Source: Nitrospira sp.
Lineage (GTDB): Bacteria > Pseudomonadota > Gammaproteobacteria > Acidiferrobacterales > SPGG2
Reading direction: 5' to 3'
Assembly (NCBI GenBank): GCA_019456345.1
Contig: VRUB01000003.1
Span: 1 to 46,446, forward strand
DNA length: 46,446 bases
The notes below the pieces were generated by a model. The model ran no database searches and was not told the origin of the DNA. It saw nothing but the letters and a program-made list of their open reading frames with translations. The translations under genes were made by a program, and so were the position numbers. Of the stretch, positions 4,854-44,546 are shown piece after piece (position 1 is the first letter of the stretch; every line of letters starts with the position of its first letter).

Positions 4854-5921
4854 ATGAGGACCGCACTGACAATCGTATTAGGCGCCTGGTTGCTGCTGGC
4901 AGGGTGTGCCGGTAAGCCGGCCCGACCCGACTGGACCGCGGGCAGCAGCGCGCGTTATCCCGATACCCGTTTCCTTGTAGCGCGGGGACAGGGACCCAGT
5001 GAAAGCAAGGCCGCCGATCGGGCACGAGCGGAGCTGGCCAAAATCTTCCACGTCCGGATCAGCGATGAGAGCGTGGACACGCAGACGATTGTAAGCCGTA
5101 CCGAACGCGGCAAGACGCAACGCGAGCAGCGAGGAAAGGTGACCCGTACCGTCGTCGCCGGGACCGATCGGATTCTCGAAGGCGTAGAAGTGAAAGAGTT
5201 CTGGCTGGATCCGCACACGCAAGTGCACTATGCACTCGCCGTGCTCCCGCGGGCACGGGCCAGCGCCCGACTCGAACAACGGATGGCGCATCTGGATGCG
5301 GCGACGCGCGACTATTTGGCCCAGGTGCATACGCGCAGGGACGTGCTGCTGCGGCTTGGCGCTGCCGAGCGCGCGCTCACGGCCCAGCACGAGCGCCAGG
5401 CCCTGCAAGACTCGCTCCGCATCGTCGATCCCGCCGGGCGCGGCATGGCACCGCGCTGGGAGCTGAGCGACTTGCAACGCGAGTTTGAAAAGCTGTTGCC
5501 GCAGCTACAGCTCGTGCCCGAGGTGCAGGCCGATCCGATTGGTGGGCTGGGGACCGCCTTGTCGGGTGCCATCGCGGCGGCGGGATTTACGCTGGTGCAG
5601 GGCGCACAGGCGGATTATGTGCTGGCGGCCACCTTGCAGATGGATGATCTGGGCGAGCGCGACGGTTGGCTGTGGCTCAAGGGTACACTGGAGATCAAGC
5701 TCGTGGAGCAGACGAGTGCGCGTGTGCGTGGCGTCCAGCGCTGGACGGTGAAGGTCTCGGCGCAGCAACGACGCACGGCGCGGCGCCGCGCCGTGGACCG
5801 GGTGGTGTCGATCCTGAAGCAGGAGCTCCAATCGACAATCGTCGGTTTTGGCGGCGGCGCGGGTGGGCGCGCAAGCGCTCAGTCGTGGGCCGGCTCGGGG
5901 GAATCACGATCGCCGGGTTGA
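4854..5921 (+). CDS. LPP20-family lipoprotein, second copy in cluster
   Basis: Lipobox LAGC; RPDWTAGSSARYPDTRFLVARGQGPSESKAADRARAELAKIFHVRI is LPP20-like. Confidence 0.78.
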   Translation: MRTALTIVLGAWLLLAGCAGKPARPDWTAGSSARYPDTRFLVARGQGPSESKAADRARAELAKIFHVRISDESVDTQTIVSRTERGKTQREQRGKVTRTVVAGTDRILEGVEVKEFWLDPHTQVHYALAVLPRARASARLEQRMAHLDAATRDYLAQVHTRRDVLLRLGAAERALTAQHERQALQDSLRIVDPAGRGMAPRWELSDLQREFEKLLPQLQLVPEVQADPIGGLGTALSGAIAAAGFTLVQGAQADYVLAATLQMDDLGERDGWLWLKGTLEIKLVEQTSARVRGVQRWTVKVSAQQRRTARRRAVDRVVSILKQELQSTIVGFGGGAGGRASAQSWAGSGESRSPG

Positions 5922-6985
5922 TGGTGTTGTGCCAGCGCCCAGTGCACGTGCTCGCGCACCAGCGCGGAGGGGTGCGTGAGACGCGTCTGAAGGGCGGCGA
6001 TTACGGCGGCGCTCATCGGGGCGTTGCCCAAGGCCACTGCGATGTTCCGCAACCAGCCCTCGTAACCGGTGCGGCGAATGGCCGAACCGCGCGTGCGCTC
6101 GTCGAACTCGGCCTCGCTCCAGGAGAACAAGTCCACCAGCTTGGCCCCATCGAGATCCTGGCGCACGGCGAAATCAGGCTCCGCGGTCGGTCGGGCAAAA
6201 CGATTCCACGGACACACGAGCTGGCAGTCGTCGCACCCGAAGATGCGGTTACCTATTAATGGTCGCAGCGCCAACGGGATCGGGCCGCGCAGCTCGATGG
6301 TCAGATAGGAGATGCAGCGGCGCGCATCGAGCTGATAAGGGGCGACGATCGCCCGGGTGGGGCAGACATCAATGCATGCCTGGCAGCTACCGCAATGGTT
6401 TTGCGATGGCCGGTCCACCGGTAGCGGCAGATCGGTATAGATCTCACCGAGAAAAAACCATGAACCAGCCGTGCGGCTGAGCACATTCGTGTGTTTGCCG
6501 ATCCAGCCGAGCCCGGCCTTCTGTGCCAGCGGTTTCTCCAGCACCGGCGCGCTGTCGCTAAACACGCGGTAGCGATGCGGGCCAACGGCCCGCTCTATCC
6601 GCACGGCAAGTTGGTCCAGGCGCTTACGCACGACCTTGTGATAATCGCGCCCAAGCGCGTAGCGTGAGATAAAGCCCAGGGACGGATTATCGAGCACCGC
6701 CTGTGTGTCGGCGGCCTCTGCCGGGTAGTAATCCATGCGCGCACAGATCACACGCACGGTTTCCGGCAACAAGGCGTGGGGCCGGCTGCGCCGGGTACCG
6801 TGTGCAGCCATGTAGTGCATCTCGCCATGGCGCCCGCCAGCGAGCCATTCGAGCAGGCGTGCCTCGGCCTCACCCAGGTGTCGATCGCTGACCCCGATTT
6901 GCTGAAATCCGAGTTCCTGCCCCCAGTGTTTGATATCACGGGCAAGGCGATTCAAGTCGATGGACTGTGTATGTGCGTTATCCAT
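5879..6985 (-). CDS. queG: Epoxyqueuosine reductase
   Basis: LARDIKHWGQELGFQQIGVSD..., CGSCQACIDVCPTRAIVAPYQLDARRCISYLTIELRGPIP, FGCDDCQLVCPWNRF; start placed at internal Met (MDNAHTQS). Confidence 0.95.
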   Translation of the reverse strand: MDNAHTQSIDLNRLARDIKHWGQELGFQQIGVSDRHLGEAEARLLEWLAGGRHGEMHYMAAHGTRRSRPHALLPETVRVICARMDYYPAEAADTQAVLDNPSLGFISRYALGRDYHKVVRKRLDQLAVRIERAVGPHRYRVFSDSAPVLEKPLAQKAGLGWIGKHTNVLSRTAGSWFFLGEIYTDLPLPVDRPSQNHCGSCQACIDVCPTRAIVAPYQLDARRCISYLTIELRGPIPLALRPLIGNRIFGCDDCQLVCPWNRFARPTAEPDFAVRQDLDGAKLVDLFSWSEAEFDERTRGSAIRRTGYEGWLRNIAVALGNAPMSAAVIAALQTRLTHPSALVREHVHWALAQHHQPGDRDSPEPAHD

Positions 6986-7159
6986 CCAGGCCTGTGGGTT
7001 ACTTGACCCGTAGCGAGTGGCGGGTAGCGAGTAGCGAGGAATACACGGACACATCGTAGCGTACCCATGCATTCCTAGCTACTCGAAACTCGCTACTATT
7101 ACCTATGTCCACTGCGTACTCCGCGGTTAGAATACGCTGACAATAGGGCTGAGAGTTGT

Positions 7160-8662
7160 ATGAATCTACCTGAACCATTGTATTTCGCCGAGCAGAGCCG
7201 CGCGCTTGACCGCATCGCTATAGAAAGGCACGGCATAGCGGGATACACCTTGATGCAGCGCGCCGGGCAGGCGGCGTTCGAGCTCTTGCGCAGCCGCTGG
7301 CCACGGGCGCAACGCATTGCCGTCGTCTGTGGGCCCGGTAACAACGGCGGTGATGGTTACGTGATTACCCGGCTTGCGCGCGAAGCAGGAATGGACGCAA
7401 TGGTGCTGGCGCTGGGCGATCGGGCGCGTCTGCAAGGTGACGCGCTGCAAGCGCGCGAGGCGCTGGAGGCAAGCGGGGTCAGGGTAGCACCGTTCGGGCC
7501 CGAGCGGTTGGCGGATGCCGACGTAATTGTGGACGCACTGTTTGGCACTGGCCTGGAGCGCACGGTGCGCGATACGTGGCGCGAGGCCATAGACGTCATA
7601 AATACAACGGCGGCAGTACCGGTGCTGGCCGTCGACATTCCATCGGGCCTGCATGCCGATTCCGGTCGTGTGCTGGGCGTGGCGGTACGGGCACAGGCCA
7701 CCATTACTTTCATAGGGCTCAAGGCCGGTCTTTTTACCGGTCACGGGCGTGACTATTGCGGCGAGATCGTGTTCGCTGACCTCGGCGTTCCGGCGGAGAT
7801 CTACGCGGGCGTTACGCTGGCGGCGCGGCGGATAACGCCGGGCGTACTCGCAGACCTGCTTCCGCGCCGGGCGCGCAGTGCGCATAAAGGTGCGCTTGGG
7901 CACGTTGCCGTGATCGGGGGCGACGAGGGCATGCCCGGCGCCGCCCGCCTGGCCGGAGCGGCCGCCTACCGTGCCGGTGCCGGTCTGGTCACGGTGCTCA
8001 CCCACCCGGCCCACGCGGCCCAGATCAATAGCGGCTGCCCGGAGCTGCTGGTCCAAGCCGTGAGCGATGCGCGCGCGCTGCGCGCGGCCGTGCAACGCGC
8101 CGACATACTGGCGATCGGCCCCGGACTGGGGCAGGGGCCGTGGGGCCGCGAGCTACTGGCGGCGGCGTTGGAATCATCGCTGCCGAAGGTAGTGGACGCG
8201 GACGCATTGAACCTGCTGGCGGCGGAACCGCTCAAGCGCGACGATTGGGTGCTGACGCCGCACCCAGGTGAGGCCGCACGCTTGCTCGGTATCACGACCG
8301 CACAGGTGCAGGACCAGCGCTTCGATGCGCTGCAGGCGCTGGTGCAGCGCCTGGGTGGCGTCTGTGTGCTGAAAGGCTCGGGGACACTGATCGGGCACAG
8401 CGGCGAGGCGCAAGCGTGGCTGTGTGATGCCGGCAACCCGGGCATGGCGAGCGGGGGCATGGGGGACATTCTTACGGGCGTGGTGGCGGCATTGATGGGG
8501 CAGGGCCTGACGGCACCGGACGCAGCGCGCCTCGGTGTGTGGGTGCACGCCGTCGCCGGTGACGATGCTGCGCGCCAGGGCGGTGAGATCGGCCTTATGG
8601 CATCGGACCTGATGCTTTTTGTGCGCAGCCGATTGAACGAGCTCAGCGGCGATGAGGGTTAA
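7160..8662 (+). CDS. nnr: Bifunctional NAD(P)H-hydrate epimerase / ADP-dependent NAD(P)H-hydrate dehydratase
   Basis: N-terminal YjeF_N (CGPGNNGGDGYVIARL-like), C-terminal carbohydrate-kinase-like domain (VLTPHPGEAARLL, GNPGMASGGMGDILTGVVAALMGQG). Confidence 0.95.
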   Translation: MNLPEPLYFAEQSRALDRIAIERHGIAGYTLMQRAGQAAFELLRSRWPRAQRIAVVCGPGNNGGDGYVITRLAREAGMDAMVLALGDRARLQGDALQAREALEASGVRVAPFGPERLADADVIVDALFGTGLERTVRDTWREAIDVINTTAAVPVLAVDIPSGLHADSGRVLGVAVRAQATITFIGLKAGLFTGHGRDYCGEIVFADLGVPAEIYAGVTLAARRITPGVLADLLPRRARSAHKGALGHVAVIGGDEGMPGAARLAGAAAYRAGAGLVTVLTHPAHAAQINSGCPELLVQAVSDARALRAAVQRADILAIGPGLGQGPWGRELLAAALESSLPKVVDADALNLLAAEPLKRDDWVLTPHPGEAARLLGITTAQVQDQRFDALQALVQRLGGVCVLKGSGTLIGHSGEAQAWLCDAGNPGMASGGMGDILTGVVAALMGQGLTAPDAARLGVWVHAVAGDDAARQGGEIGLMASDLMLFVRSRLNELSGDEG

Positions 8663-9107
8663 GCTGGCGGTCCCCAGCGTCGCCGAGATGGAGGCCTTGG
8701 GCGCGCGGCTTGCGCGCCGAATCGACCAGGTCCATCTGCTCTACCTGCACGGGGCGCTCGGCACCGGCAAGACCACCCTGGTGCGCGGCATCCTGCGCGC
8801 ACTGGGGCATGGCGGCCTGGTCAAGAGCCCCACGTTTACACTGGTGGAGCCGTACTCGTTCGATGGACTCATCGTTTACCATATCGATCTCTATCGCGTT
8901 TCTGACCCCGAGGAGCTGGAATTTCTCGGATTTCGCGATTATCTTGAAAGTGAGAGCGTATGCCTGGTGGAGTGGGCTGAGCGCGGCGTAGAAAAATTGC
9001 CGTCCCCGGATCTTGACGTAACGATTCAGAATGTTGACGATACGCGCACCGTGGAGCTTGAATCGTATTCCGATCGAGGCACCGAACTACTCAGCGGTCT
9101 GACATGA
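8652..9107 (+). CDS. tsaE: tRNA threonylcarbamoyladenosine biosynthesis ATPase TsaE
   Basis: LHGALGTGKTTLVRGILRALGHGGLVKSPTFTLVEPY, YHIDLYRVSDPEELEFLGFRDYL, LVEWAERG. Confidence 0.95.
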   Translation: MRVKLAVPSVAEMEALGARLARRIDQVHLLYLHGALGTGKTTLVRGILRALGHGGLVKSPTFTLVEPYSFDGLIVYHIDLYRVSDPEELEFLGFRDYLESESVCLVEWAERGVEKLPSPDLDVTIQNVDDTRTVELESYSDRGTELLSGLT

Positions 9108-35657: not shown

Positions 35658-35989
35658 CCCTAGCTACCCAGCCGCGCACCCACGGACCCTGCCGCCGGAC
35701 GGCCCTAGCTCGGCCCTCAGGCCAGCCCGGACGCCTGGCAATGCCGCATCGGCGCGATGCCTGCCAGCAGGCTGTCATGAGCATACGCAGGTAGTCGAGC
35801 CCCTGTCTGCGCCGTTGCCCGGCCCATCGGGCCGGGAGTGCCGGGGCGGGTAGCGGGTCGAAAACCGATTGTCTTTCCGCGCATTGCCGTGGCGGCCCCG
35901 TCGGTCCGAACCGTGCGCGGCCTCGTGCTGACACGCGCCCGACGCACGCTACACTAAGTAAGGTAGATAGCGGGTGAGCCGAGGGGCCG

Positions 35990-38137
35990 GTGGTAAATAA
36001 ACGCCTATTGTCAGCGTGGGTAACAGCATTCCTGGTAATGCTGGGTGGTGAGGTGCATGCGCTCACTCCACAAATACAGCTCCGCCAGCTCGACCACGCG
36101 GCGCAGTCGCTGAAGCAGGAGGTCTTCAAGCTCAACCGGGATCTGCTAATCCTCGGAGAGGAGCTGCGCTACCCCGCTGCGACGCGAGTCGCCGTGTTCT
36201 TGTCGGTGGATGCAAACCAGTCATTCCAGCTGAAATCCGTTGAAATCACGATTGACAACGAGGTGGTAGCGAGTCACCGATATACCGAGCGCGAGACCTC
36301 CGCACTCGTTCGCGGCGGGGTGCAACGGATCTACGTGGGGAATCTGGCCATTGGTGAGCACGAGCTCAATGCATCTGTCAGCGGCAAAGTTGCGAGCGGT
36401 AAAGATTACCGGCAAAGCGGCTCGATGATCTTTTACAAAAGGAACGGCCCGAAGTTCGTCGAAATGACTATCGTAAAACCCGCAGGCAAGCGACAACCCG
36501 AGCTCCACCTGCCGATGACGGTAGCGGACCGTCAGGCACGGCACGTGAAGGATCCCTATTTTGGGACGGTATTGTTCAATGTTTATCAGCAAAAATATTT
36601 TTCGACGGTGACTGGCCTGCTGGCGGCACAAGCAACAAATAACTTGTCGCAACACCAGCACGAGTCGCAGTGGCTACTGGGCGATCTGTATCTTGCTTAC
36701 GGGCTCCACCGCCAAGCCGCGCGGACGTTTGCGCGTTTGATGGACCAGGGTACACCGCCCGATGTAGCTGCGCGTGCTCGCTTTTATCTCGCGAAGAGGT
36801 GGTACCAGCGCGGCGATGTCAAACGGGCACAAGATGAGTTACTGCGTATGCAAGACCCGCTACCGGCGGATATCAAGGATCAACAGCAAGCGCTTCTGGC
36901 TCTGGTTCTTATGAAACGAAACCGCCCGGGCGAGGCCGTAGCCGTGCTGAGTCAGCTGCGAGGCAAATCGGGACGGGCCACCTATGCGCGCTACAACATG
37001 GGTGTGGGCCTAATACAGATCGGGCGCACCCAGGAGGGCGTGGCGCTATTGGGGAAGATCGCGCGCATGCGCGCCAGGAATGACGAAATGCTGGCGCTGC
37101 GAGACAAGGCGAACCTGGCGCTGGGTTTCGCGTTCCTCGGCCTGCCCGACCCCGGTAAGGCGAAATCCTACTTCCGCGAGGTGCGCCTCAGCGGACCGTT
37201 TTCCAACAAAGCGTTGCTCGGGCTCGGTTGGGCGCTGTCCGCCAGGGGCAAGCACAAACAGTCCCTGGTGCCGTGGATGGAGCTGCAGAAAAGAAACGGG
37301 GTCGACGTCGCAGTGCAAGAGGGCCTGCTGGCGGTACCGTACGCCTTGGCTGAGCTCGAAGCCTATAAACAGGCATTACAGAACTACGAGAACGCCATAG
37401 CCGTGTACAACGCCGAGATCGAGCGACTGCGACAAACGGTCGAGGATTTGCGTACAGGCAAGCGCCTGGCAAGCGTCGTTCCGCGAAGTCAACCCACTTT
37501 GACGGAGCGGATCTCGCCAGAGCAAATATTGCCCGACACGCCGGAAAACCGCTATCTCATCCGGCTGTTCGCGAGTAACGACTTTCATGAAGCACTTAAG
37601 AACTATCGTCACATGCAGACTCTGGCACGGCACCTGGATTGCTGGTCTGCGGCACTGGCTGGCAGCAACGAGCAAGACCTCGCGAGGGCGATAGCAACCG
37701 TTGAGCAAGAGCTTGCGAAAGCGCCCGGCAATGCAACTCTGGCCGATGACCAGGAAAATTGCGGACGGTTAATCGACTCGCGACATTGGCAATTCAGCCG
37801 TGGCTACAAGCCAAGCTTGTGGCAAACCAATGCCACCAGCAGCGCGCCCGCTGCGGCAATTGCCGCCGCGGGCTCGCGCATCTCCGTCTCGCAAAATGCA
37901 CCACAGCGAGAGGATGAAAGCCGCGAAGCCGCGGTCACGCGTCTCAGCGAGCTTCGCGCCCGCGTATCCCAGCTCAAAGCGGAAGTCGCTCGCGCCGTGG
38001 GCGCCCACGAGCAATACCTGCAGGACCGCGCGGCACAGGAGCTCGAGCGCCAGAAACAGCGCCTGCGGGCCTACGTCACGCAGGCGCGATTCGGCATCGC
38101 GCAAATTTACGATCGCGCATCAAATCGCGCCCAGTAA
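35990..38137 (+). CDS. Secreted TPR-repeat protein of envelope ExbB/D operon
   Basis: 715-aa ORF; N-terminal signal peptide ...GGEVHALTPQ; TPR-like repeats in the middle; C-terminal coiled-coil. Confidence 0.8.
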   Translation: MVNKRLLSAWVTAFLVMLGGEVHALTPQIQLRQLDHAAQSLKQEVFKLNRDLLILGEELRYPAATRVAVFLSVDANQSFQLKSVEITIDNEVVASHRYTERETSALVRGGVQRIYVGNLAIGEHELNASVSGKVASGKDYRQSGSMIFYKRNGPKFVEMTIVKPAGKRQPELHLPMTVADRQARHVKDPYFGTVLFNVYQQKYFSTVTGLLAAQATNNLSQHQHESQWLLGDLYLAYGLHRQAARTFARLMDQGTPPDVAARARFYLAKRWYQRGDVKRAQDELLRMQDPLPADIKDQQQALLALVLMKRNRPGEAVAVLSQLRGKSGRATYARYNMGVGLIQIGRTQEGVALLGKIARMRARNDEMLALRDKANLALGFAFLGLPDPGKAKSYFREVRLSGPFSNKALLGLGWALSARGKHKQSLVPWMELQKRNGVDVAVQEGLLAVPYALAELEAYKQALQNYENAIAVYNAEIERLRQTVEDLRTGKRLASVVPRSQPTLTERISPEQILPDTPENRYLIRLFASNDFHEALKNYRHMQTLARHLDCWSAALAGSNEQDLARAIATVEQELAKAPGNATLADDQENCGRLIDSRHWQFSRGYKPSLWQTNATSSAPAAAIAAAGSRISVSQNAPQREDESREAAVTRLSELRARVSQLKAEVARAVGAHEQYLQDRAAQELERQKQRLRAYVTQARFGIAQIYDRASNRAQ

Positions 38138-38142
38138 GCACG

Positions 38143-40953
38143 ATGTCAACTCGCTGTTACACCGCACTGATTCTTGGTCTCGTTTTAACGGGGTGTGTCT
38201 CGGCGCCGACCGATAACACAATCAAAAGCATCGAGGAGCAGGAAATTCAAGTACAAAGACAGGCCCCGGAGCAAACCGGGCGAGCGAAGGCGATCGAGAG
38301 TTACCGCGAGTTCTTGCATAAGGAAGAGAACGACCTGCTGCGGGCCGAGGCGATGCGACGGCTGGCGGACCTGGAGTTGGAGCGGTCTGAAGCTGCCTAT
38401 CTCGAGGAGGTAAGAAAACTCGAAACAGATACGAAAAATAAAGATGTGCTCAAACCGGCCGATTACGCCAAGGCTATCGAAACTTATCGAGAGCTGCTCC
38501 GGACTCATCCGAGTTACGCGGGGAACGATCACGTGTTATACCAGCTTGCCCACGCCTATGAGCAGAGCGGGAACTACCCTCAAGCTCTCCGCACCCTGAA
38601 TCAGCTGGTTACGTTGTATCCGAACGTGAAGTTCATTGACGAGGTTCAGTTTCGGCGCGGTGAGCTCCTTTTTGTAATGAAGTCATACCGTAAAGCCGAA
38701 CGCGCGTATCGCGCCGTTCTGAAAATTGGCGACACGTCACTATATTTCGAGAGAGCGCTGTACAAGGGCGGGTGGTCACAATTCAAACAATCACGTTACG
38801 ATTCAGCGCTTAAATCGTTTTTCAGCCTGCTTGACCGCAATTTCAGCAAGAACAAATCGGGGCGATCCACAGCTGCGCCGAAACCGCGAGCCGAAAGGGA
38901 GCTCAATAATGACACATTCCGGGTAATTAGCTTGAGCTTCTCTTATCTTGGCGGCGAGAAATCAATTACCAAGTATTTCAAAAAAAACGGCACACGCCCC
39001 TACGAGGCCCCGGTCTACAACAACCTAGGCCGCCTGTATATCGCGCAAGAACGTTACCAGGATGCGGCCAATGTCTTTATCGAGTTTATCAAGCAGCATG
39101 CGAACGACCGCCGTGCACCGAGCTTCCAGTTGAAGGTCATCGAGGCCTATACGCAGGCGGGTTTTCCGACACTGCTGATCACGGCCAAGGAGGATTATGT
39201 CGTCCGCTATGGTGTCGGCACCAAATTCTGGGCCATGCACGACGATGACACCCACGTATCGATTGCACCGCATCTGAAGAGCAATATCGAAGATCTTGCG
39301 CGTCATTTCCACGCGCGGGCGCAACGCACCGGAAAAACTACAGATTACGATCTGGCCGCCCGCTGGTACGCAGAGTTCGTGGACGAGTTTCCAGACGACG
39401 CGCGCGCGCCCAGAATGATCTTCTTGTTAGCGGAGACGCTGTCGGAGGGAAAACGGTACGCCGAAGCAGCGATCCAGTATGAAAAAACGGCCTACGAGTT
39501 TCCACCGCATGCCGATAGCGCCGAAGCGGGTTACGCTGCGTTGCTCGTCCACAAGAAACGCGAACAGCAGCTACGCGGCCGCAAGCAACAAGAGTACCAG
39601 CAACGTACCATCGCGAGTGCGTTGCGCTTCGGGAATGCCTTCCCTCGCGACAAGCGGGCAGCCGCCGTTCTAACCAAGGCTGCGGAAGACCTGTTTGCCT
39701 TGAAGCAACCGGAGCCAGCAGCCCAAGCCGCGCGCCGTGTTATTGCCATGAAGCCACAGCCAGCACTGCGCCGCACAGCCTGGACCGTTGTTGCCCATGT
39801 CGACTTTGACAAGGGGTCTTACCGGCAAGCTGAAGCGGCCTACAAGGCGGTGTTGCGTCTCACACCGGGCGGTGATCCGCAACGTCCCGCACTGGTCGAG
39901 CGTCTGGCCTCATCTGTTTACAAGCAAGGAGAGCAACAACGCGCCACTGGCGACCTGCGCGGTGCTGTGACGCATTTTCTTCGGGTGAAGAACATCGCAC
40001 CAACCTCAGCGATAACGCCCACCGCCGAGTACGACGCGGCCGCGGGCCTCATCGCCTTGAAGGACTGGCGTGGTGCAGTGAAGGTGCTTGAGGGATTTCG
40101 CAGAGAATTTCCAAACCACTCACTGCAACGCGATGTCCCTGAAAAGCTGGCGGCGGCCTACATGGAAGGCCGGCAATGGTCGCGCGCAGCGGCGGCGTTC
40201 GAGGAAATCGCGCAGCGCCGGCAAGACCCACGGGTACAGCAGGAAGCTCTCTGGCAGGCCGCCGAGCTGTATGAAAAGGACGCGCGCAACGAATCCGCAG
40301 CCGCTGTATACAAACGCTACGTCGCCCTGTTTCCGGGCTCCTTCGAGCGCGCCATGGAGGCACGCTACCGGCTCGCGCAGCTCTATGCCAAGGGCGGGCG
40401 TCGCGCAGACTACTATTATTGGCTAGGCAAGATCGTTGCGGCGGCAGATGCCGGTGGACGGGCACAGACCGATCGCACCAACTATTTGGCGGCAAAAGCC
40501 ACGTTTTTGCTCGCGGAACGCGCGCACCAGCAGTTTCGGAAGGTACGTCTGGTGATTCCGCTGCGGCAAAGTCTCAAGGCCAAGAAGCAGAAGATGCAGG
40601 TAGCGCTGAAGGAGTACGGGCGCGCGGCCGATTACGGCGTTGCCGAGTTTACAACGGCAGCGACCTATCGCATCGCCGAGGTCTACCACAGCCTGAGCCG
40701 GGATCTGCTGACTTCAGAGCGGCCACGTGGGTTGTCTCCTCAGGAGCTCGAACAGTACGACGTGTTGCTTGAGGAGCAAGCCTATCCGTTCGAGGAGAAG
40801 GCAATCGAAATTCACGAGATAAACGTGCAGCGCGTTACCGACAACGTTTACGACGAATGGGTAAGAAAGAGCTTCGAGCAGTTGCGCAATCTGCACCCGG
40901 TACAGTATGCAAAGTTTGAAAAAAGCGAGGCCGTGAGCGATGCGATCAAATAG
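38143..40953 (+). CDS. Large TPR-repeat lipoprotein
   Basis: 936-aa ORF, lipobox LTGC (MSTRCYTALILGLVLTGCVSA), repeated TPR motifs (Y...LRTHPSYAGNDHVLYQLAHAYEQSGNYPQAL). Confidence 0.85.
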   Translation: MSTRCYTALILGLVLTGCVSAPTDNTIKSIEEQEIQVQRQAPEQTGRAKAIESYREFLHKEENDLLRAEAMRRLADLELERSEAAYLEEVRKLETDTKNKDVLKPADYAKAIETYRELLRTHPSYAGNDHVLYQLAHAYEQSGNYPQALRTLNQLVTLYPNVKFIDEVQFRRGELLFVMKSYRKAERAYRAVLKIGDTSLYFERALYKGGWSQFKQSRYDSALKSFFSLLDRNFSKNKSGRSTAAPKPRAERELNNDTFRVISLSFSYLGGEKSITKYFKKNGTRPYEAPVYNNLGRLYIAQERYQDAANVFIEFIKQHANDRRAPSFQLKVIEAYTQAGFPTLLITAKEDYVVRYGVGTKFWAMHDDDTHVSIAPHLKSNIEDLARHFHARAQRTGKTTDYDLAARWYAEFVDEFPDDARAPRMIFLLAETLSEGKRYAEAAIQYEKTAYEFPPHADSAEAGYAALLVHKKREQQLRGRKQQEYQQRTIASALRFGNAFPRDKRAAAVLTKAAEDLFALKQPEPAAQAARRVIAMKPQPALRRTAWTVVAHVDFDKGSYRQAEAAYKAVLRLTPGGDPQRPALVERLASSVYKQGEQQRATGDLRGAVTHFLRVKNIAPTSAITPTAEYDAAAGLIALKDWRGAVKVLEGFRREFPNHSLQRDVPEKLAAAYMEGRQWSRAAAAFEEIAQRRQDPRVQQEALWQAAELYEKDARNESAAAVYKRYVALFPGSFERAMEARYRLAQLYAKGGRRADYYYWLGKIVAAADAGGRAQTDRTNYLAAKATFLLAERAHQQFRKVRLVIPLRQSLKAKKQKMQVALKEYGRAADYGVAEFTTAATYRIAEVYHSLSRDLLTSERPRGLSPQELEQYDVLLEEQAYPFEEKAIEIHEINVQRVTDNVYDEWVRKSFEQLRNLHPVQYAKFEKSEAVSDAIK

Positions 40954-41581
40954 CGCCCTGGTATTTTCGCTGGTTGTGTGCGTGGCCTGGCTTTCCGGTT
41001 GTACCGTGCCCGCACAGCGTCCGGTCGAATCGCAACCCGCTGCGACAGCGGCAGGTGCGTCCAGCGCGGGCAAAACATCGACTATCGACCCGCTGGCTAT
41101 GAGAGAGCACGAACGCGCGCTGGCAGCAATAAAGGCAAAACGCAACGCGCAGGCAGAACAAATACTGCTGGCGATGACACGGAGCTACAGCCAGTTCGCC
41201 GGACCTCATGTGAACCTGGGCATCATTTATCACCGAACTGGGCGGGATCGTGAGGCAGAGCAAGCGTTCCACCAGGCTATCGCGATCAATCCGGAGCGGG
41301 CAGACGCTTACAACCACCTTGGCATTGTGATGCGCGAAAATGGGCGCTTCAGTGAGGCGCGCGAAGCATACGAAAACGCCCTCAAGATTGATCCTTCTTA
41401 TGCCTATGCGTACCTCAATCTGGGCATTCTCTACGACTTGTACCTGTTGAACGCCAAGAAGGCACTGAAACATTACGAGCTGTATCAAAAGCTGGTGAGC
41501 ACGCCCGATCCCGGCGTGGCCAAATGGGTGGTGGATCTAAGAAGACGTATGAAGCGCCATCAAAAGACTGCGGGGAGGTAA
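40940..41581 (+). CDS. TPR-repeat lipoprotein
   Basis: Lipobox LSGC; HVNLGIIYHRTGRDREAEQAFHQAIAINPERADAYNHLGIVMRENGRFSEAREAYENALKIDPSYAYAYLNLGILYDLY. Confidence 0.9.
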   Translation: MRSNSALVFSLVVCVAWLSGCTVPAQRPVESQPAATAAGASSAGKTSTIDPLAMREHERALAAIKAKRNAQAEQILLAMTRSYSQFAGPHVNLGIIYHRTGRDREAEQAFHQAIAINPERADAYNHLGIVMRENGRFSEAREAYENALKIDPSYAYAYLNLGILYDLYLLNAKKALKHYELYQKLVSTPDPGVAKWVVDLRRRMKRHQKTAGR

Positions 41582-41583
41582 CC

Positions 41584-41886
41584 ATGATGAAGCACCTTGT
41601 CACTGTGCCCCTGCTCTTGTACGCGCTTGCAATGACAAATGTGCACGCGCAGGATCGTGTGGAGCTGCCGGGAACCTCGATTATCGGAAACCGAGAGCTG
41701 CCAAAGGTTCTGTACATCGTTCCCTGGAAGCGACCGAACGCGGACAACCTGATGGGAAATCCCGTTGGAAGGCTGGTTAATGAGGCCCTCAGCGCTGTGG
41801 ACCGCGATGTTTTTCTCAGACAAATCGAGTATCACGACATTATTGCCAATACCCACACCTCAACCGACTCGGTGTTAAAGAAATAA
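41584..41886 (+). CDS. Small secreted protein of the ExbB/D operon, hypothetical
   Basis: 100-aa ORF; signal peptide ...MTNVHA; GTSIIGNRELPKVLYIVPWKRPNADNLMG; tightly placed inside the operon. Confidence 0.75.
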   Translation: MMKHLVTVPLLLYALAMTNVHAQDRVELPGTSIIGNRELPKVLYIVPWKRPNADNLMGNPVGRLVNEALSAVDRDVFLRQIEYHDIIANTHTSTDSVLKK

Positions 41887-41930
41887 ATTCCCTGTCATTT
41901 ATCGCTTTAGAATTCTGTTTGGAGGTTACT

Positions 41931-42578
41931 ATGGAAACTTACGGCACGATAGTCCGTTTCTTTCAAGACGGCGGCATATTCATGTATCCGATCATGATTG
42001 TGCTCGCATTAGGTATAAGCATCGCTATTGAACGTTATTTCCATTTGAGCCGTTCGACCAGCGTAAACAAAAAAACCTGGCACGAGCTTATGCCGCTGAT
42101 TAAGGCAGGAGAATATAAAAGGGCGCTTGCCGTATCCACAGAATCCAAGGCAGCTATCGGAAAGATCATGAACTATGGCCTTTCACGCACCACAACGGCG
42201 CGGCGGCGCGATGATATCGAAACTGCCATGGAAGAAGGTCTAATGGAAGTCGTGCCGTCTCTGGAAAAACGTACGCACTATATCGCCACGTTCGCGAATA
42301 TTGCGACGTTGCTGGGGCTACTCGGCACCATCGTCGGTCTTATCAGCGCCTTTACCGCCGTCTCACACGCGGATCCCGCAGAAAAGGCAGATCTTTTGTC
42401 GGCAAGCATCTCGGTTGCGATGAATACCACGGCATTCGGCCTGATGGCGGCAATCCCGCTGCTGCTCATCTACTCGGTCCTACAGTCCAAGACCACCACG
42501 TTGGTCGATAGCCTGGAGATGGCATCGGTCAAGTTCATAAACATGCTCACGGAGCAGAAGAAGGCAAGCGGAGCCTAA
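41931..42578 (+). CDS. MotA/TolQ/ExbB-family proton channel
   Basis: GGIFMYPIMIVLALGISIAIERYFHL; IATFANIATLLGLLGTIVGLISAF; SISVAMNTTAFGLMAAIPLLLIY; start at METYGT. Confidence 0.95.
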   Translation: METYGTIVRFFQDGGIFMYPIMIVLALGISIAIERYFHLSRSTSVNKKTWHELMPLIKAGEYKRALAVSTESKAAIGKIMNYGLSRTTTARRRDDIETAMEEGLMEVVPSLEKRTHYIATFANIATLLGLLGTIVGLISAFTAVSHADPAEKADLLSASISVAMNTTAFGLMAAIPLLLIYSVLQSKTTTLVDSLEMASVKFINMLTEQKKASGA

Positions 42579-42580
42579 TC

Positions 42581-43096
42581 ATGAGATACCGCAGGCGGCG
42601 ACTGAAAAACGACACGACGGAGTTAAATATCACCGCCTTTATGAATCTCATGGTGATACTCGTGCCGTTCCTGCTGATCACTGCGGTGTTCTCACCCATC
42701 ACGATAATGGAACTGAATCTGCCGCCGGCGTCCTCAGGCGAGCTGAGTTCGAAAAAAGACCTGGAGCTGGAAATCATCCTGCGCAAGGATGCGTTGGTGG
42801 TGGGTGACCGAAATAGCGGATTGATAAGGCGCATCAAAAACAACGGCGGCGCCTATGATCTGGAATCGTTGTCGCAGCTCCTGCAACAGATCAAGGCGCA
42901 GTTTCCCGACAAGGACAATGCGATGATCTTGGCGGAAGCGACGACTTCTTATGACTCCCTGGTACAGGTAATGGATGCCGTGCGGCTCGTGGAGGTACTG
43001 CAGGATGAGTCGCTCGTACAGGCCGAGCTGTTTCCCGACATATCCATTGGTGATGCGCCGATGGCCGCCACTGCCCGCAAACGACGCAAGCGGTAA
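42581..43096 (+). CDS. ExbD/TolR-family protein, paralog 1 (Asn at canonical TM Asp position)
   Basis: LNITAFMNLMVILVPFLLITAVFSPITIMELNLP aligns to ExbD INVTPFIDVMLVLLIIFM. Confidence 0.88.
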   Translation: MRYRRRRLKNDTTELNITAFMNLMVILVPFLLITAVFSPITIMELNLPPASSGELSSKKDLELEIILRKDALVVGDRNSGLIRRIKNNGGAYDLESLSQLLQQIKAQFPDKDNAMILAEATTSYDSLVQVMDAVRLVEVLQDESLVQAELFPDISIGDAPMAATARKRRKR

Positions 43097-43102
43097 CGAA
43101 CC

Positions 43103-43603
43103 ATGAAGCTGTCGCGCAGAGCCATAAGAATGCAACGTCACCATGACCGTAGAAAGCCATTTACCGGCTTTAACATGGTGGCGCTGATGGACATCTTTAC
43201 GATACTCGTGTTCTTCTTGCTGGTGAACTCGGGCGAGGTACAGGTGCTGCCCACAACCAAGAGCTTGAAGTTGCCGGAATCCGTCGCCACCAAGAGGCCG
43301 GAAGAGACCCTGGTGATAATGGTCACTGATCAGGACATCCTGATCCGAGGTAAAAGGATCGTATCTGTAGCCGCCATTATTGATTCCCCGTCGCTGGTGA
43401 TCGAGCCGTTAAAAGCAGAGTTGGATTATCTTTCCAAGCGTTCTCGGGGCAAGCGCGAATCATCCACCCGGCGTGCAATCACCATTATGGGGGACAAAGA
43501 GATTCCCTTTAAGCTTCTGAAGAAGGTAATGGTTACCTGCACGCGTGCTAACTACACAACCATTTCGCTCGCAGTTCTGAAGAAAACGCGCCAGGGAGAC
43601 TAA
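43103..43603 (+). CDS. ExbD/TolR-family protein, paralog 2 (canonical TM Asp)
   Basis: GFNMVALMDIFTILVFFLLVNSGEVQVLPTTKSLKLP. Confidence 0.9.
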   Translation: MKLSRRAIRMQRHHDRRKPFTGFNMVALMDIFTILVFFLLVNSGEVQVLPTTKSLKLPESVATKRPEETLVIMVTDQDILIRGKRIVSVAAIIDSPSLVIEPLKAELDYLSKRSRGKRESSTRRAITIMGDKEIPFKLLKKVMVTCTRANYTTISLAVLKKTRQGD

Positions 43604-43607
43604 GACG

Positions 43608-44546
43608 GTGACGGTTGCGCAACTCTCCTACCACTCACCTTATCTCCCGTGGTTGGTATCGCAGGAGGAAAAACGCCGTTTTCGGAAGATCGTCCAATGG
43701 GTCTTTGGCCTTTGTCTTGTGCTCGCGCTCATCGTGCCGTTTCTGCCGGTCCCGGAAGTCGATCGTGAGAAGGCCGAAACCTTGCCGCCCCGGATGGCCA
43801 AGCTGGTTCTCGAGCGCAAGAAAGCCAAGTCCCCTCCCCCGGTCGAGGCACCGGTGCTCGCGCCGAAACAGCAAAAAACAAAAAAGCCGCCCAAGCTGAA
43901 AAAGCAAATGAAACCGGAGAAGACGGTGCAGGACGTACGAACAGCCCGCAAGAAAGTCGAGCGTGCCGGTCTGCTTGCGTTCAAGGATGAGCTCGCGGCG
44001 TTGCGTGATAACTCGGTTGTGGCGGGGTTGAAAAAAGACAGGCGATTGCAACGGGGATCCGGTGAGACAGCGCCAAAGCCGGAGCGTTTCGTGATCGTCG
44101 CGAACGCAGCCAAAACAAGCGGCGGGATTAACACGTCGGATCTCAGCCGCGATACCGGCGGCAGCACCCTTTCCGGGCGGACAAGCACCAAGGTCAACAG
44201 TCCGATTAGCCGCACCCAACAAGCACGCGCATCGCGCAGCCGAAACCGGCGCAAGGCATCACGTACCATCGAAGAAATACAGCTGGTCTTCGACAGAAAT
44301 AAATCGGCCATTTACACGATTTATAATCGTGCGCTGCGCAAGGATCCTACGCTGGAAGGCAAGGTCGTTCTGAAAATAACCATCAAGCCCTCCGGAAAGG
44401 TCACGGCCTGCGAGATCGTGTCTAGCGAGCTCGGCGATCCCAAACTCGAGCGAAAGATCGTTACACGGGTTATGCTTTTTGATTTCGGCAACAAAGACGT
44501 GGAGACCATGGTAGTCACCTACCCAATAGATTTCCTGCCTTCTTAA
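43608..44546 (+). CDS. AgmX/PglI C-terminal-domain (TonB-like) envelope protein
   Basis: Single N-terminal TM, Lys/Pro-rich linker, C-terminal IEEIQLVFDRNKSAIYTIYNRALRKDPTLEGKVVLKITIKPSGKVTACEIVSSELGDPKLERKIV. Confidence 0.85.
   Translation: MTVAQLSYHSPYLPWLVSQEEKRRFRKIVQWVFGLCLVLALIVPFLPVPEVDREKAETLPPRMAKLVLERKKAKSPPPVEAPVLAPKQQKTKKPPKLKKQMKPEKTVQDVRTARKKVERAGLLAFKDELAALRDNSVVAGLKKDRRLQRGSGETAPKPERFVIVANAAKTSGGINTSDLSRDTGGSTLSGRTSTKVNSPISRTQQARASRSRNRRKASRTIEEIQLVFDRNKSAIYTIYNRALRKDPTLEGKVVLKITIKPSGKVTACEIVSSELGDPKLERKIVTRVMLFDFGNKDVETMVVTYPIDFLPS

Follow-up and report, generated by a model that had tools for sequence, protein, structure and literature searches.

The closest described relatives of the locus analysed here are the Agl-Glt and Agl-Nfs machines of Myxococcus and a smaller gene set drawn from the same families. 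Luciano et al. (2011) describe homologues of aglR, aglQ, aglS, gltC, gltD, gltE and gltG that are clustered together in several Gammaproteobacteria, one betaproteobacterium and Geobacter, with one additional gene that has no homologue in Myxococcales. They named this cluster the "core complex" and gave its function as unknown (PMC3169522). Wartel et al. (2013) showed that the AglRQS motor also powers NfsA-H, the machinery by which spore-coat glycan is carried round the spore of Myxococcus, and they regard the gammaproteobacterial core as a possible basal transport machinery (PMC3858216). According to the two reports, AglR binds both GltG and NfsG, movement depends on the proton motive force, and glycan transport by Agl-Nfs requires residue D28 of AglQ (PMC3169522, PMC3858216). 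The operon studied here occupies positions 35990-44546, on the + strand, of a stretch of 46,446 nucleotides, hereafter the window (contig VRUB01000003.1, assembly GCA_019456345.1; Nitrospira sp., placed by GTDB in the gammaproteobacterial order Acidiferrobacterales). Judged from its sequence, the operon represents the Agl-Glt/Nfs core complex as it occurs in Gammaproteobacteria, a system of a known kind.

The window contains eight genes on the same strand, designated T1, T2, T3, S4, B5, D6, D7 and G8:

T1, 35990..38137, + strand: 715 aa, GTG start, signal peptide and TPR matches; a T0 domain (residues ~25-180, a helix plus beta-sandwich of ~150 aa) fused to a GltC/NfsC-like TPR protein (residues ~180-715).
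T2, 38143..40953, + strand: 936-aa TPR lipoprotein, counterpart of NfsD/GltD; lipobox LTGC.
T3, 40940..41581, + strand: 213-aa TPR lipoprotein, counterpart of NfsE/GltE; lipobox LSGC; overlaps T2 by 14 bases.
S4, 41587..41886, + strand: 99 aa, secreted (signal-peptide-like start); occupies the GltF/NfsF position.
B5, 41919..42578, + strand: AglR-type channel subunit of the ExbB/TolQ family (PF01618, E 3e-28).
D6, 42581..43096, + strand: AglQ-type ExbD (PF02472); transmembrane (TM) Asp replaced by Asn, "FMNLMV".
D7, 43103..43603, + strand: AglS-type ExbD (PF02472); TM Asp retained, "LMDIFT".
G8, 43608..44546, + strand: 312 aa, GltG/PglI-type TonB-like protein; one TM helix, a Lys/Pro-rich periplasmic linker and an AgmX/PglI C-terminal domain; no FHA domain.

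The eight-gene set claimed in the original prediction was found in full, at the stated coordinates and on the + strand. Pfam and NCBIfam gave family matches for T1-T3 (TPR families), B5, D6, D7 and G8, the D6/D7 pair matching PF02472 with E-values of 4e-19 and 9e-15. The genes are separated, in order, by 5, -14, 5, 32, 2, 6 and 4 bases, and this spacing suggests that they are co-transcribed. For B5, comparison with relatives favours an ATG start at 41931. The prediction had presented the set as a machine of unknown function. This stands insofar as the literature found reports no function for the version in Gammaproteobacteria, but the machine is not undescribed, having been reported as the core complex in 2011. 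Well-characterised homologues do exist in the Myxococcus machines, while the stand-alone core is not well characterised.

The assignment to the Agl-Glt/Nfs family rests on profile comparisons with Myxococcota genomes, the named ones being reached through a search with the MglA of M. xanthus. The B5 profile scores 127-154 bits on AglR-type loci and at most 72 bits on all other members of the family, and at six of the six Myxococcota loci the D6 profile scores best on AglQ and the D7 profile best on AglS, so that B5, D6 and D7 follow the order R-Q-S. The Myxococcus Nfs cluster (L248, its proteins named by cluster layout) comprises two barrels, NfsC, NfsD, NfsE, a 93-aa protein, NfsG and NfsH, so that its C-D-E-F-G order parallels T1-T2-T3-S4-G8. 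T2 scores 213 bits on NfsD and T3 115 bits on NfsE of this cluster, and in the G1-like Myxococcus cluster (L277) they score 206 bits on GltD and 101 bits on GltE. Profile alignment with hhalign matched T2 to Myxococcus NfsD/GltD with a probability of 100% (E 1e-61, 874 columns), and Cys18 of T2 is invariant across 13 aligned members. T3 was matched to Myxococcus NfsE with 99.6% and to NF033758 (GltE) with 38.6 bits. For the T1 proteins of relatives, hhalign gave 94% for NfsC and 85% for GltC over 160-220 TPR columns, and position and secretion agree with this assignment. The C-terminal domain of G8 exhibits 99.6% to GltG/NfsG and 72.6 bits on NF033768 (cut-off 40), and G8 scores 41 bits on Myxococcus GltG. 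Against the full-length GltG model it falls far below the cut-off, the match being restricted to the C-terminal domain. The AgmX/PglI-type label first given to G8 can be refined, as the protein matches GltG (= PglI) better, at 47 bits, than GltJ (= AgmX), at 25 bits. The resemblance to the Myxococcus gliding machinery noted originally reflects real homology, covering AglRQS, GltD/E/G and, less securely, GltC, and the same seven homologous genes, plus an additional one, are clustered here as in the core complex of Gammaproteobacteria and Geobacter described in the available parts of PMC3169522 and PMC3858216. An 846-aa GltG-like gene at L246 was considered as the neighbour of GltD/GltE and rejected, that cluster being a paralogue and the G1-like cluster being L277. 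Sequence searches of the PDB with T1 and G8 gave nothing useful. One record titled "Comamonas sp. KCTC 72670" (L112, genome G422) is probably mislabelled, its MglA (99%) and glt/nfs clusters identifying it as Myxococcus.

The gene set is widely conserved. G8 is present in 18 of the 60 near relatives (the genome of the window counted among the 18), in 85 of the 369 genomes of an even sample of the Gammaproteobacteria, and in 36 of 195 genomes of the class of Geobacter. Gene order is identical in all 14 near relatives that possess all eight genes. In the class sample, the order T2, S4, B5, D6, D7, G8 is kept in 38 of 39 usable loci (spanning at most 20 kb), with T0, T1 and T3 in their usual places wherever they were detected; the exception, L106, has B5-G8 only. 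In the class of Geobacter, the order is kept in all 20 loci read. The recurrence of this order in almost all relatives examined puts the eight-gene set far beyond chance.

A few loci deviate in detail. In one near relative (L040 of G055, 5665-8820), S4-B5-D6-D7 is intact, T1 and T2 were undetected and G8 is cut at residue ~165; this copy may be decaying, or the assembly may be at fault. G8 is longer (about 440-530 aa) in L033, L034, L037-L039 and L309-L328, with an N-terminal region ahead of the TM helix that replaces the FHA domain of GltG and, in the gammaproteobacterial cases, resembles a coiled coil. Two loci of the class of Geobacter (L313:16976-17626 and L319:16385-17107) have a second B5-type gene just downstream of G8.

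With regard to the motor, the window differs from Myxococcus at two TM residues, exhibiting Asn in D6 and Val in B5. The M. xanthus AglQ D28N variant is reported to lose proton conductance and motility and to fail to sporulate (PMC3858216); by counting along a Myxococcus AglQ, the Asp of the "FID" motif is residue 28. D6 exhibits Asn at this position in 56 of the 57 gammaproteobacterial loci, window included, while the TM Asp of D7 is present in all 57. The position of the TM Glu of AglR ("GISEAM") is occupied in B5 by Val, Ile or Met in 57 of 57 loci, although both channel Thr residues are kept. The sole gammaproteobacterial locus with Asp in D6, L103 (G073), has diverged motor genes and a divergently oriented barrel block. 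The Glu and Asp are retained in the TolQ and TolR encoded by this genome, so the D6 and B5 changes are specific to this motor. Conservation of the TM helix is 0.88 in D6 and 0.90 in D7, compared with 0.55 and 0.56 for the rest of the two proteins, and since the D6 helix is this strongly conserved, its Asn looks selected and not drifting. The 2011 definition of the core was based on gene content, and AglQ D28 was not one of its criteria.

The class of Geobacter contains both states. Of its 20 loci, 11 combine Asn in D6 with Val in B5, and nine combine Asp with Glu. A tree computed with these columns removed nests the Asp/Glu group within the Asn/Val rows, and D6 Asp and B5 Glu therefore look as if they were regained together. 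Exceptions to the pairing are L103, which has Asp with Val, and two paralogues of Myxococcota, which have Asp with Lys.

These residue states would imply either a D6-D7 heterodimer with one proton site or a motor driven by D7 alone. We give about even chances to a natural, widespread 5:2 motor with a single Asp, in which an AglQ-type and an AglS-type rod would form an obligate heterodimer, only the AglS-type rod would bind a proton, the AglQ-type rod would be fixed by Asn in a protonated-like state, and the loss of the channel Glu would be matched to it. A review of 5:2 rotary motors notes that MotB D22N mimics the protonated state, and also describes the choice between homo- and heterodimers of AglQ and AglS as unsettled (PMC9389320). 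This latter point, together with the fact that only D7 carries the Asp, leaves room for an axle made of a D7 homodimer, with D6 either forming a separate inactive complex or standing outside the proton path as a partner that has a structural role or binds peptidoglycan. We consider this a weaker candidate, and a doubtful one, as the TM helix of D6 is conserved as strongly as that of D7, Asn included, the two genes are always adjacent, and the D6 residue covaries with the channel residue of B5, an argument for placing D6 within the pore.

The fold of the motor subunits and the TonB-like end domain of G8 are shared with TolQRA-Pal and ExbBD-TonB, and could point to an auxiliary energiser for opening a receptor or maintaining a tight outer membrane. 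This is improbable: a receptor, Pal, TolA and TolB are absent from the operon and from the conserved gene set of the relatives, the operon has two ExbD genes, and its large TPR scaffold matches Nfs/Glt. In a tree of the ExbB family (a quick tree with some long branches), the B5 rows form one group with a support of 99, and B5 plus AglR stand apart from the TolQ/ExbB-like rows. The genome also has a separate TolQ/TolR pair on another contig. The tree and this separate pair led us to reject the operon as a Tol or Ton system, in agreement with the original view that it is neither.

Homology to AglRQS-Glt likewise raises the possibility of a gliding-motility machine, T2 and T3 matching GltD and GltE and G8 matching GltG. 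We regard this as very improbable, since T2 is about equally close to Nfs-type and Glt-type D proteins and no GltI, GltJ or barrels were found with the operon. The 2011 authors also argue that gliding or motility is unlikely to be powered by the core on its own, and that most carriers have no documented gliding (PMC3169522). Compared with the Glt machine, the window further exhibits a D28N-type AglQ, and its genome as assembled has no GltA/B/H-type barrel. As this assembly is incomplete (84.6%, 413 contigs), absences in the genome are provisional. Compared with AglRQS-NfsA-H, the window has aglRQS inside the operon, a G8 without FHA domain, no barrels and no NfsH.

Many relatives do have two barrels upstream, as in nfsA-nfsB. 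Directly upstream of the core in 18 other gammaproteobacterial loci (eight in near relatives and ten across the class, with one more placed divergently), we observed a block comprising a haem protein with an HZS-alpha-like region, an SH3-domain barrel, a TIGR04565 barrel, a TlpA-like thioredoxin and a DUF3570 protein. It precedes T0 in the following loci:

L026-L032, L036, L075, L077, L078, L080, L081, L087, L089, L098, L105, L110.

In Myxococcota, the proteins matched by TIGR04565 are the gltA/gltB pair and further barrels of the Glt/Nfs type (assigned by position), and the gammaproteobacterial barrels align with GltA at an hhalign probability of 95%. In the class sample, 53 of the 55 genomes with TIGR04565 above its cut-off also carry G8 (369 genomes; Fisher p about 6e-39, not corrected for kinship), and in 26 of these 53 the two lie on one contig within about 20 kb. 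By these sequence criteria, GltA-type barrels are not confined to the Deltaproteobacteria, contrary to the 2011 report, whose available text gives gltA and gltB only for Myxococcales and Bdellovibrionales (PMC3169522). In M. xanthus, GltA, GltB and GltC bind one another (PMC4488436), which fits a GltC-type protein meeting barrels. The position of the block and the co-occurrence of its barrels with the core could also indicate that the core belongs to a redox or metal system of the outer membrane, whose working end would be the barrels, TlpA, DUF3570 and haem proteins, DUF3570 proteins being flavinylated elsewhere (PMC8238504). This is quite improbable, as most of the DUF3570 proteins in the blocks do not have the [ST]GA[ST] flavinylation motif, no ApbE was noticed beside them, and the barrels are lacking from the genome of the window and from its family. 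A search for a GltA-type barrel elsewhere in this genome found none. Because its family has the core but no TIGR04565 barrel, the window appears to be a barrel-less form, and the machine is "complete", as originally proposed, with respect to the eight-gene set but not to the outer-membrane barrels that many relatives add.

T1 differs from the described core complex in that the window fuses T0 to it. Among the scanned loci, T0 and T1 are fused only in the window; wherever else both were found, they are encoded by two neighbouring genes. The fusion suggests that the two proteins bind each other. In an AlphaFold model with a mean pLDDT of 86, the T0 domain consists of a helix and, after it, a beta-sandwich. 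A fold search of this domain against the PDB returned weak generic matches and no functional lead, and no Myxococcus counterpart was detected. T0 or S4 may be the "additional gene" of the core as described in the available text of PMC3169522. The fusion, the barrel co-occurrence and the AglQ-type Asn with loss of the AglR-type Glu do not appear in the available parts of PMC3169522 and PMC3858216.

Upstream of T1, a candidate promoter-like site (CTGACA-16-TACACT, 35928..35955, + strand) is weak, with three such sites in the region compared with 3.8 expected by chance. The neighbouring genes, an acyl-CoA synthetase upstream and a 2-phosphosulfolactate-phosphatase-like gene downstream, look unrelated to the operon.

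From the gene content and order, homology, residue states and co-occurrence described above, we infer how the complex might assemble, pair its rods, conduct protons and act. B5, D6 and D7 would make up an inner-membrane motor of the ExbB/ExbD class, powered by protons. D7 would pass protons through the ring of B5 while D6 shares its axle, so that each pair of rods would have a single proton site and not two. G8 would be held beside the motor by its single TM helix, its flexible Lys/Pro-rich arm and TonB-like end domain crossing the periplasm to pull on, or cycle contacts with, a TPR scaffold made of the secreted GltC-type T1 and the lipoproteins T2 and T3, with S4 sitting in the GltF slot. The most likely output would be directed movement or remodelling of a component of the outer membrane or of the surface glycan, comparable to the movement of spore-coat glycan by AglRQS-Nfs. 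This choice of cargo is the weakest step, and we put it forward tentatively, at clearly less than even confidence. A trans-envelope device driven by the proton motive force, as originally proposed, remains the best reading of the locus, and as a whole we consider a proton-driven gammaproteobacterial Agl-Glt/Nfs core complex acting through these steps to be a likely explanation.

Several observations weigh against this explanation. The M. xanthus AglQ D28N motor is dead, so a motor with Asn requires the assumption of a heterodimer or of an AglS homodimer. The covariation of D6 and B5 is striking, but it comprises about three changes on the tree per site, too few for a significance test. The homology of T1 to GltC/NfsC is weaker than that of the other scaffold proteins and rests partly on TPR repeats. 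S4 is conserved in 55 loci and agrees with GltF/NfsF in slot and size; its homology to them is not significant (hhalign 6%), and a motif match was dropped after 282 of 1000 column shuffles proved as good, so that S4 is assigned by position only. A TIGR04565 barrel was found neither in the genome of the window, which is 84.6% complete, nor in three members of its family, and a literature search for a phenotype or experiment in gammaproteobacterial carriers found none.

If the motor with a single Asp is real, it would answer whether AglQ and AglS pair in this family, and its stepping would differ from that of MotAB and ExbBD. As the AglQ-type Asp has been lost in nearly all gammaproteobacterial loci and the AglS-type Asp in none, the question of pairing becomes testable by structure and mutation, and since the class of Geobacter holds both states, its close relatives allow a comparison of operation with one and with two sites. 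For the orphan gammaproteobacterial core, the link to GltA-type barrels names an outer-membrane partner to look for.

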